A stretch of DNA of 64,000 bases, taken from contig NC_012522.1 in NCBI RefSeq assembly GCF_000010805.1, forward strand, positions 2,356,001 through 2,420,000, given 5' to 3'. Within the stretch, counting starts at the first letter, position 1. Every line of letters begins with the position of its first letter. Made by a program: the position numbers and the translations under genes. The notes under the pieces are model-generated. The model had not been told where the DNA came from. It made no database searches and was given only the letters and a program-made list of their open reading frames with translations. Source of the stretch: Rhodococcus opacus B4. Its GTDB lineage: Bacteria > Actinomycetota > Actinomycetes > Mycobacteriales > Mycobacteriaceae. Positions 2,496 to 6,182 of this stretch are shown piece by piece.

Positions 2496-3479
2496 ATGAG
2501 ATGGGCGATTCTCGGCGCGAGCAATGTCGCGGCCACCCGCGTGCTGCCCGCGTTGCGCGAGTGCGGGCAGACGGCGGCGGTGGTGCTCAGCGGTGATCCG
2601 TCGCGCGCGGAGGACTACCGGAGGACCCACGGCATCGAGTCCGCCACCGGCGACCTGCGCGAGGCGGTGGGCGGCGACGTCCGGGCCGCGTACATCTCCT
2701 CCACCAACGACAAGCACTTCGAGCACGCCATGGCCGCGATCGACGCGGGCCTGCACGTGCTGTGCGAGAAGCCTCTCTCGTTCGACATCGCTCAGGCGCA
2801 GAAGATGGTCGACGCGGCCGCAGCCGCGGGGGTGGTGTTCGCGACGAACCATCACCTCCGCAATCACCCTGTCCACCGCGCAGCCCGAAAGTTGCTGGCC
2901 GAGGGCGCGATCGGCGACATTCTGTCGGTGCGCGTCGGCAATGCCATCATGCTGCGCCAGGCCCTGCGCGGATGGCGTCTCGACGGCGTCGGCGGCGGAG
3001 TCGTCCTCGACCTCGCGGTGCACGACATCGACACTCTCCGCTTCGTCACCGGGATGGAACCGGCCACGGTCACGGCGGTGGGCGTGTGCCAGGGACTCAG
3101 TGACGGTCCGGCGGACGCCGTGATGACGAGCGGCATCCTCGGCTCCGGCACCCTGTTCTCGCTGCACGACGCGTACACGGTCCCCGGCGCCGTGACCGGA
3201 TTCGAAATCCACGGAACGGCAGGCACTCTCGCCGCCGAAGACTGCATGCGCCCCGACCCCACCGGAACGCTGCGCATGATCCGGGACGGAGACGGCACCA
3301 CCGTCCCGCTCGAAACCGTCGACAACCTGTACGCGCCGGGGATCCGGGCCTTCGTCGACGCCGTCCGCGGGGTCGGTGAACCGGTGGCGACCGGGCTCGA
3401 CGGACTGCGGTCGGTGACCGCCGCGCTGGCGATCCTGCGGTCGATCGAGGAGGGCCGGGCGGTCCGGGTCGCTACATGA
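2496..3479 (+). CDS. Gfo/Idh/MocA family NAD(P)-dependent oxidoreductase
   Basis: 327 residues. The N-terminal Rossmann half begins [20 protein letters not shown], a slightly altered GxGxxA nucleotide motif. The family signature CEKPLS lies near residue 90 and supplies the lysine that normally hydrogen-bonds substrate. The C-terminal half is the GFO_IDH_MocA beta-sheet domain, with [15 protein letters not shown] carrying the conserved D-x3-H pair. Such enzymes oxidise or reduce sugars, inositols or related polyols; the substrate is unknown. The start has GGGAAGGA about 10 nt upstream. Its 3' end overlaps the convergent phospholipase gene by 8 bp. Confidence 0.9.
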
Positions 3480-5007
3480 TCAGCCCGCTGGGCCGACGCC
3501 GCAGCGGCGACGGTTCCTGCACGGGCATCGAATTCGGCGGGACGGGGTAGGGCGCACCGGCGTTGAGCGTCCCCGCGGCCACATTCGGCCCGCACTGGGC
3601 GATCGCCGCCTGCAGACGTGGCCCCGGGTCCGTCATCGCGGGAACGCCGGCGTTCGGCGCCGACGAGAAGTCGAACGCGGACGTCATGTCGCCGACGGCG
3701 CCGCGACGCCACTCGGTGAGATTGGGGACGGGAACACCGAACCGCTGCTCGAGCAGTCGCAGTTGCGACGTGTGGTCGAACGTGTCGGACGCGACGAGGC
3801 CGCCGCGACTGTACGGCGAGATGATCAGAGACGGGACCCGGAATCCGAGCCCGATCGGTCCCGGATTGTTCTCGCTCTCGGCCACCGTGTTCAACGGAAC
3901 CGTCAGGTATTCGCCCGGGGTGCCCGGCGGCGGTGTGGGCGGGGTGACGTGGTCGAAGAAGCCGCCGTTCTCGTCGTAACTGATGATCAGCGCCGTCTTC
4001 TCCCAGATCGCCGGGTTGGAGGTGAGGATGTCGAGCACCTCGACGATCCCGACCGCACCCGCGGCCGGGGGCAGCGCCGGGTGCTCGCACGTGAAGATGT
4101 TGGGGACGATCCAGGACACCGCGGGCAGGGTGCCGTTCGCGACGTCGGCCCGGAAGTCGTTCGGGTACGTCGGATCGAGGCCGCGGCGGGCGAGTTCCGA
4201 ATTCGGGTCGCTGTATTGCTTGAAGCAGCCGAGCATCCCGTCGAGCGCGACACTCGACACCGGACCGAGGTCCTTGTTGGCGTACACCTTCCAGCCGACC
4301 CCGGCCTCCTGCAGGTTCTCCGGATAGGTGCGCCAGGAGTAGGCGAACCTCGGGATCACCGTCGGCGTCTCGACGAGCGGACCGCCCGCCAGCCCGTCCG
4401 GGTCGATGGTTCCCGTCATCCAGTAGAGCCGGTTCGGGTCCGTCGGCCCGAGCACCGAGCAGAAGTAGTGGTCGCAGATCGTGAAGGCGTCGGCGAGGTC
4501 GTAGTGCACGGGGATGTCGGCCCGCGTGTAGTAGCCCATCGTGGCGGGACCGTTGAGCGGCCCTTCGTGCGCGATGTGCACCGGCATCCACCGGTCCATC
4601 GCGCCGCCGTTCCACGCGTCGTGCTGCGGACCCCAGGAATGGGTGGGGTCGTTGATGCATTCGCCGTCGAGGTGCGTGCCCTGCGTGGTGTCGAGACGGA
4701 ACGGCTCGAGAAACCCGGTCGGGGTCGGCCCGGCGCCGGGCGTCCAGCCGTACTGCTGCCACGCCGGTGACGGGTCGTCGAATCCGCGCACCCCGGACAG
4801 CGTGCCGTAGTAGTGGTCGAACGAGCGGTTCTCCTGCATGAGGTATACGAAGTGCTCGATGTCGTTCAGCGACCCGCTGCCACCCGGATCCTGCGCGTAC
4901 GCCCTGTCGATCACCGGGCCCGCCCACGAACTGAGGAATGCGGCGCCGCCGGCCGCTGCGGCGGAGGCGAGGAACTTGCGTCGTGAGATGTCCGATGCCG
5001 GGGTCAC
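3472..5007 (-). CDS. Phospholipase C / acid phosphatase superfamily, Tat-exported
   Basis: 511-residue extracytoplasmic phosphoesterase similar in length and layout to mycobacterial PlcA-D. The N-terminus carries a twin-arginine signal, [12 protein letters not shown] at residues 8-19, ending near AYAQD. The catalytic signature [12 protein letters not shown] follows at about residue 59, with later metal-site segments [15 protein letters not shown] and [14 protein letters not shown]. The GTG at 5007 was chosen because it places the Tat motif at the very N-terminus; the open frame runs 55 codons further upstream without a signal-like start. The gene lies 56 bp downstream of the TauD-like gene on the same strand, so the two may be co-transcribed. 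Expected substrates are phospholipid head groups. Confidence 0.88.
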
Positions 5008-5063
5008 GGATCGTGACGCTAGTCGCTGCGGACGCCGCCCGCCCGGTGAATGCGCACGTTGCC

Positions 5064-5930
5064 CTACTGCGGGCCCACCGGCACATCGCCTTCCAGCGTG
5101 ATGCGGTGCATGACGCGGTGCTGGGTCCCGTAGTCGCGGTTGGCGTAGTGCGCGGTGCTGCGGTTGTCCCACAGCACGAGGTCGCCGAGACGCCAGCGGT
5201 GCCGCACGACGTGCTCCGGTTTGGTGAGGTGGGCGTACAGGAAGTCGAGAATTCCCCGGCTCTCCGCCTCGGACACCCCGGCGATGTGGGACGTGAAGCC
5301 CGGGTTCACGAAGATGCCCTTGCGCCCCGTTTCCGGGTGAACCCGCACGACGGGATGCTCGACGGGCGCGAGTGCGGTGACTTCCTCACCGTCCCAGATG
5401 TTTCCCTTGCCGCCGCGCTTCTGCGCGAGGTAGTACCCGAATTCGCGGTTGCCGTCGTGGACCGCGGTCAGCTGGTCGATCATCTGCCGGATCGGCAGCG
5501 ACAGCGATTCGTACGCCAGCTGGCTGTCGGCCCAGTTGGTGTCGCCGCCGTGCGGCGGAAGGACGACGGGACGGAGGATCGACCCGAGCGGTGGCCGCTT
5601 CATGAATGTCACGTCGGTGTGCCACACGTCGGCGAAACCGTTGTCCTTGCTGTCGAGCGCGTACACCTCCCGGGCCACGTTTCCGCTGTCGTGGACGGGG
5701 TGACCCGCGGTCAGCCGACCGAGCCGGCGACCGAACTCGATGTGGCCCCAGTCGTCGAGCGACTGGCCCCGCAGGACCAGAACCTTGTGTTCGGTCAGCG
5801 CCGACCGGATCGCGGTCACCTCGTCGTCGGTGGCGGACGCGACGTCCAGGCCGAGGATCTCGGCGCCGAACGACGGGCCGAACTTGTCGAGCGTCAGCGA
5901 CGCCGCTCTGGTCTCGAATGCAGTGCTCAT
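5064..5930 (-). CDS. TauD/TfdA family Fe(II)/2-oxoglutarate dioxygenase
   Basis: 288-residue non-haem iron dioxygenase of the taurine / alkylsulfate / 2,4-D type. It shows the facial triad HTDVTF (His and Asp) and a distal His in [13 protein letters not shown], plus the 2-oxoglutarate-binding arginine region [13 protein letters not shown]. The start MSTAFETR at 5930 is preferred; the frame extends 34 codons upstream through low-quality sequence. A cysteine-rich leader peptide (6053-6127) lies 122 bp upstream on the same strand, which suggests cysteine-responsive control and so a role in releasing sulfite or sulfate from organosulfur compounds. The family assignment is firm; the substrate is inferred from context. 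Confidence 0.88.
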
Positions 5931-6052
5931 GATTTCTTTCGCGAAGTTGTCGAGGGTCGGCCCGGACCTGCGAACGCGGAGAACGCGCGAGGAATTACCG
6001 AACGGCCGATGGCTACGAGGAGAGGACAGCACGCGTTACGCGCGCCGGACCG

Positions 6053-6127
6053 TCAGCAACAACACATGTTGGCGCACGTACGGCACAGGTCGACGGCGAG
6101 GCGTCGCACCAGGTGAGTCGTATGCAC
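6053..6127 (-). CDS. Polycysteine leader peptide (24 aa) upstream of the TauD-like gene
   Basis: A GTG-initiated frame of 24 codons begins VHTTHLVRRLAVDLCRTC and ends in three consecutive Cys codons before TGA, with five cysteines in all. The HLVRR-x-VDLCR core and Cys run match the short leaderless polycysteine ORFs described in mycobacteria as cysteine-responsive attenuators of sulfur genes. No Shine-Dalgarno precedes it. A TAGGAA hexamer on the minus strand ends 7 nt before the GTG, as expected for a leaderless transcript starting at the G. Presumably ribosome stalling at the Cys codons when Cys-tRNA is scarce permits expression of the dioxygenase. Confidence 0.72.
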   Translation of the reverse strand: MHTTHLVRRLAVDLCRTCANMCCC

Positions 6128-6182
6128 GACCCAATTCCTACCGGAAGGGAGGGAAATGAGCAAGCTCGGGGCAATCGCGCGA

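Follow-up and report, generated by a model that had tools for sequence, protein, structure and literature searches.

The locus analyzed here raises the question of why a very short, cysteine-rich open reading frame should lie directly in front of the gene for a generic dioxygenase, and whether it controls that gene. In the window, by which we mean the whole 64,000-nucleotide stretch of Rhodococcus opacus B4 DNA under study, this small ORF (sORF) was recognized by ORF reading and conservation on the minus strand from 6127 to 6053, where it starts with GTG and encodes the 24-codon peptide VHTTHLVRRLAVDLCRTCANMCCC, followed by a stop codon; no such ORF exists on the plus strand of 6053-6127. Five of the 24 codons specify Cys (positions 15, 18, 22, 23, and 24), and the frame ends with TGT TGT TGC TGA. 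The three terminal Cys codons (codons 22 to 24, 6056-6064) are the proposed sensing codons, as judged from the conservation of a Cys/Arg run at this position. Further upstream, codons 8 to 16 (6080-6106) form a conserved peptide core, RR-LA-VDLCR, whose pattern [KR]RxxVD[LF]CR is common to other leaders. The original prediction described a 24-codon GTG-started ORF with HLVRR-x-VDLCR and three terminal Cys codons. The ORF, its start, and the Cys run stand, but the spacing does not: the one-residue gap was a misreading, and two residues separate RR from V in the actual motif, HLVRR-LA-VDLCR. When the own genome was searched with the one-residue-gap motif, only chance-like matches were obtained, equal in number to the control. 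The distance of 122 bp to the dioxygenase gene had been read correctly, as the ATG of tauD lies at 5930 on the minus strand, 122 nt downstream of the sORF. Within the 64-kb window, the sORF is the sole ORF of up to 30 codons that ends in three Cys codons and a stop, and 30 order-1 Markov shuffles of the window yielded none. We read it as a leaderless, translated sORF, a cis-acting attenuator through which tauD would respond to cysteine, and we assign this reading a probability of about 0.8.

A leaderless transcript is made plausible by the position of two promoter-like elements relative to the start codon. A -10-like TAGGAAT is located at 6134-6140 on the minus strand, its TAGGAA (6140-6135) ending 7 nt before the GTG, and a -35-like TTGCTC (6163-6158), a putative promoter element, precedes it by 17 nt. 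A strict sigma-70 consensus scan did not score the TTGCTC/TAGGAA pair as a promoter. TTGCTC is kept across the opacus-group relatives with the exception of L012, which has TTGCCC, and in most of the 28 leaders compared the -10-like box reads TAGGAAT or TAGGGTT, TAGTAAT, TATGAAC, or TACAACC, with unchanged spacing to the start codon. A same-strand SDR gene ends 55 bp upstream of the leader, so read-through transcription is possible, and the leader contains a conserved AT-richer block, GGTAATTCCTC. Both features would fit an sORF that is a mere bystander, with tauD either served by a promoter downstream of the sORF or read from the SDR gene. However, whereas the remainder of the leader region has diverged between clades, the leader itself, its -10-like box, and its position ahead of tauD or transporter genes are retained, and we therefore regard a bystander as very unlikely.

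We searched for TauD relatives in 61 genomes, scanned the genome contigs, and read the regions upstream of the orthologs. The leader precedes the orthologous tauD, in the same frame, in the R. opacus/wratislaviensis/jostii/koreensis group, in most Rhodococcoides-type genomes, and in Antrihabitans. Among these relatives GTG and ATG alternate as the start codon, the stop is TGA or TAG, and all leaders compared end in CCC, CCR, or a shorter Cys/Arg run, some core-bearing leaders (L066, L070, and L077) having only one or two terminal Cys residues. For 26 leaders of 24 codons, pN/pS was 0.41 in frame compared to 0.90 and 2.62 when the frame was shifted. A search with the degenerate pattern LVRRxxVD[L/F]CR gave one match in the own 8.8-Mb genome and matches in 65 of 401 family genomes sampled, at most two per genome, against a single match for a reversed-pattern control. 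The original prediction had staked itself on relatives keeping the frame and the Cys codons; upon inspection, the frame, start, -10-like box, and Cys run all proved to be conserved. The leader is not a product of chance but is conserved and under in-frame selection. Its shortness and GTG start are what one would cite for a chance ORF without function, an explanation that is contradicted by the conservation, the in-frame selection, and the empty shuffles and can be considered refuted in silico. In the fetched flanks of two close tauD orthologs of Rhodococcoides type (L067 and L068), a recognizable leader was not found. Leaders of the VHTTHLVRRLAVDLCRTCANMCCC type were also considered before tauD of Gordonia, Streptomyces, Nonomuraea, and Sphaerisporangium, and none with a -10-like box was seen. 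In one Rhodococcus genome, tauD and its leader are duplicated in inverted orientation ∼55 kb apart (L074 and L076; G347:C1:14022 and 68666).

The gene behind the leader (5064-5930, minus strand) encodes, according to Pfam, NCBIfam, and PDB matches, a TauD-family Fe(II)/2-oxoglutarate dioxygenase of 288 amino acids without any Cys. The protein matches Pfam PF02668, the TauD/TfdA fold family, at 1.6e-64 (218.8 bits versus a cut-off of 27). Its best match among solved structures is E. coli TauD (228 bits), followed by AtsK (194) and Rv3406 (177), and the Fe-binding HxD...H motif is present, with WHTD and AHYAN aligning with the E. coli motifs in the 1gqw alignment. Because the NCBIfam taurine dioxygenase equivalog was matched with 276.5 bits, below its cut-off of 313, we go no further than to call the enzyme a TauD-like sulfonate dioxygenase, sulfonates being the predicted substrate class; it probably releases sulfur from compounds resembling taurine. 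Cys is nearly absent from these enzymes, with none in the window TauD and two in total over 36 TauD orthologs, compared to ∼1% in the coding-like ORFs of the window. Since Cys is low in TauD with or without the leader, this bears on the role of the enzyme and not on the leader. Sulfate-starved R. qingshengii IGTS8 induces TauD-family proteins and taurine/sulfonate transporters, which does not imply orthology to the window TauD, and the low sulfur content of such starvation-induced proteins was noted in the same study (PMC8557817). A gene for a Tat-signal-like phosphoesterase (3472-5010, minus strand) begins ∼55 bp after tauD and may share its transcript. Its product belongs to Pfam PF04185, of the phosphocholine-specific phospholipase C type, and the same gene order is found in R. 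opacus (L062).

In the window clade, the leader has tauD alone behind it. Genes for a permease, a binding protein, an ATPase, and TauD come after the leader in a distant Rhodococcus (G002), Rhodococcoides (L065 and L069), and Microbispora. In G009 the leader precedes three transporter genes, and the 6.5 kb that were read show no tauD-like ORF behind these; in G108 it likewise precedes transporter genes. Pfam confirmed the ABC components behind the leaders; the binding proteins and the ATPase scored best with taurine ABC models, below the equivalog cut-offs. In Antrihabitans stalagmiti a TauE/SafE exporter gene comes after tauD. For the TauA-type binding protein of G002, the nearest homologue in the own genome shows only 33% identity. 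The occurrence of the leader ahead of taurine/sulfonate-type transporter genes and tauD in relatives strengthens an organosulfur role, and with it the sulfur link that had been suggested for an otherwise generic dioxygenase. In genus g48 (L189:530 and L192:7297) the leader is located not before tauD but before the gene for a flavoprotein reductase, which we take to be FprA-like; no curated model reached its cut-off with this protein. Two Rhodococcus genomes (L066:11669 and L070:11897) carry a third leader type, WRRLHVDLCRVxTCVC, ∼5 kb past tauD.

Conserved Cys-rich leaderless uORFs have been described before cysA2, nirA, and Rv0485 in mycobacteria, the one at cysA2/Msmeg_5788 belonging to a DUF4395-rhodanese type of locus (Shell 2015, PMC4633059). 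Cysteine-responsive attenuation by poly-cysteine leaderless sORFs in mycobacteria was reported by Canestrari 2020, as cited in PMC9094748, PMC9031893, and PMC13236596. We found two further leaders with the same core in the own genome, VQTRRELLLTRRRTVDLCRVGGCCCLWRR and VQSSHELMLTRRRTVDLCRLGACCCTCC, both before DUF4395-rhodanese genes. One of these two poly-Cys leaders (L195; G000:C5:3222575) precedes a fused DUF4395-rhodanese gene, and the other (L196; G000:C5:5337310) precedes genes for DUF4395, rhodanese, and SseC-type DUF1416 proteins. Genomes of genus g50 carry VSARLELMLTKRRAVDLCRVAGCCCCCCSC at the corresponding DUF4395 locus, and the leaders at cysA2/DUF4395-type loci, KRRAVDLCRVAGCCCCCC in g50 genomes and RRRTVDLCRLGACCC in the own genome, have the core in common with the window leader. 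The earlier claim that the sORF matches the mycobacterial cysteine-attenuator type was thus borne out by sequence, in that the layout of [KR]RxxVDLCR followed by a Cys run recurs at own-genome DUF4395-rhodanese genes. The feature that marks membership, a short ORF with a run of Cys codons near its end and directly upstream of sulfur genes, is present. On these sequence features, the best reading is that the window leader joins the poly-cysteine leaderless attenuators and would extend them to organosulfur acquisition. The conservation of amino acids beyond the Cys codons could also point to a Cys-rich micro-peptide that binds thiols or metals and acts in trans, its proximity to tauD reflecting mere co-regulation. 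Against this, leaders lie 5′ of sulfur-linked genes in cis in nearly every context read, the presumed FprA-like gene of g48 being the exception, and the number of terminal Cys residues varies, which leaves such a micro-peptide with little credibility.

Under the preferred reading of a leaderless, cis-acting, cysteine-responsive attenuator, RNA polymerase would start at or beside the GTG, and the ribosome would load directly on the 5′ end of the transcript. With Cys-tRNA plentiful, the ribosome would reach the stop codon and downstream expression would be low. When cysteine is scarce, it would stall in the terminal Cys codons and presumably alter the folding of the mRNA behind the leader. Stalling would thereby switch on tauD, and possibly the phosphoesterase gene behind it, so that sulfur is drawn from taurine-like sulfonates. 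The downstream step in the window clade may be translational, by exposure of the ribosome-binding site (RBS), or transcriptional, by way of a hairpin after the leader.

Folding placed a 9-bp G+C-rich hairpin without a U tract 5 nt after the sORF stop codon (6047-6027, minus strand). The 32-nt stretch 6052-6021 has a predicted energy of -16.8 kcal/mol (z -3.2), and the stem columns are invariant in 9 species, that is, in all nine clade sequences, so that a covariation test of the hairpin is impossible. An intrinsic terminator with a U tract was looked for behind the leader and none was found, and the full window leader was not more stable than shuffles. By sequence reading, the tauD ribosome-binding region spans 5931-5946 on the minus strand, with GAAAG at 5940-5936. 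In equilibrium folding of the window clade, accessibility of the RBS (∼0.58 for the window sequence) was unchanged by a ribosome on the Cys codons. This insensitivity, together with the strong and invariant hairpin just behind the stop codon in every clade sequence, favors attenuation by premature transcription termination, in which a ribosome stalled on codons 22 to 24 would cover the foot of the hairpin (6047-6027) and block termination. However, the hairpin has no U tract and is absent from the Rhodococcoides consensus fold, in which sequestration of the start codon is predicted instead. We therefore treat termination as a tentative alternative, one that deserves attention although we lean against it.

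In Rhodococcoides, the Met-Cys codons CAUGUGU pair with ACACAUG at the tauD start, and this pairing is invariant in 12 sequences. Blocking the last third of the leader increased the predicted RBS accessibility ∼2-fold in Rhodococcoides, L077, L091, L092, L197, and L190; in Rhodococcoides and the other responsive leaders, the effect did not distinguish a ribosome on the Cys codons from one on the stop codon. RBS sequestration by the Cys codons is thus predicted for the Rhodococcoides clade but not for the window clade. Covariation is nearly absent because the leader sequences are too alike. We also tried duplex energy as a general test of sequestration, but Cys-region/RBS pairs in general scored no better than mismatched species pairs, and the measure was not discriminating. 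A CGACAAC:GUUGUUG helix that would join the Cys codons to the sequence immediately upstream of the tauD RBS looked good in the window; it was neither conserved nor favored in the ensemble.

The peptide core calls for an account of its own. Unrelated loci within the own genome, and other actinomycetes as well, share [KR]RxxVD[LF]CR, and leader relatives ending in VDLCRVATCLC or similar were observed in many actinomycetes (L171, L207, L214-L223, L053, and L054). Because the class-wide pattern searches select for the core, they show its spread and not its necessity; such selection played no part in finding the DUF4395 leaders and the tauD leaders of close relatives. In the window leader, a hairpin CGACG...CGUCG overlaps the core. 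By inspection, neither the g32 nor the DUF4395 leaders form this hairpin, and an RNA-based explanation of the core therefore does not cover all cases. The core could act within the nascent peptide to set or sharpen the stall, which would make these leaders cysteine-sensing arrest peptides and not plain codon-starvation attenuators; we consider this unlikely, if worth stating.

Taken together, these data would tie a generic dioxygenase to cysteine supply through its leader. They suggest that the poly-cysteine leader network of mycobacteria may also cover organosulfur scavenging in Rhodococcus and that, judged by sequence, its reach extends to transporter-tauD operons in organisms as distant as Microbispora. 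In fuel desulfurization, for which rhodococci are employed, one limit named in PMC9426449 is that sulfate, methionine, and cysteine repress the dsz operon. A ribosome-based cysteine sensor on other sulfur-acquisition genes would be relevant to this application.

The operons of the relatives hold the same transporter-plus-TauD gene set as tauABCD/ssuEADCB of E. coli. The E. coli operons are controlled via the activators Cbl and CysB and are not known to depend on a Cys-rich leader. Like classical attenuators such as the M. tuberculosis ilvB1 uORF (PMC13236596), the window leader is a short ORF with a run of codons for the amino acid in short supply, placed ahead of genes that would make up for the lack. 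It differs from them in that it seems to begin directly at the 5′ end without a Shine-Dalgarno sequence, has no intrinsic terminator that we could find behind it, and would target sulfur scavenging instead of amino-acid synthesis. The mycobacterial poly-cysteine attenuators have been described at loci that include cysA2, nirA, and Rv0485, whereas the gene here is that of a taurine/sulfonate-type dioxygenase, within a transporter operon in relatives, and their RBS-sequestration step is not predicted in the window clade. Like them, however, the window leader would start at the predicted 5′ end of its transcript, carries its Cys run near the C terminus, has the [KR]RxxVDLCR core that also occurs at the DUF4395/cysA2-type locus in g50, and stands first before sulfur genes.
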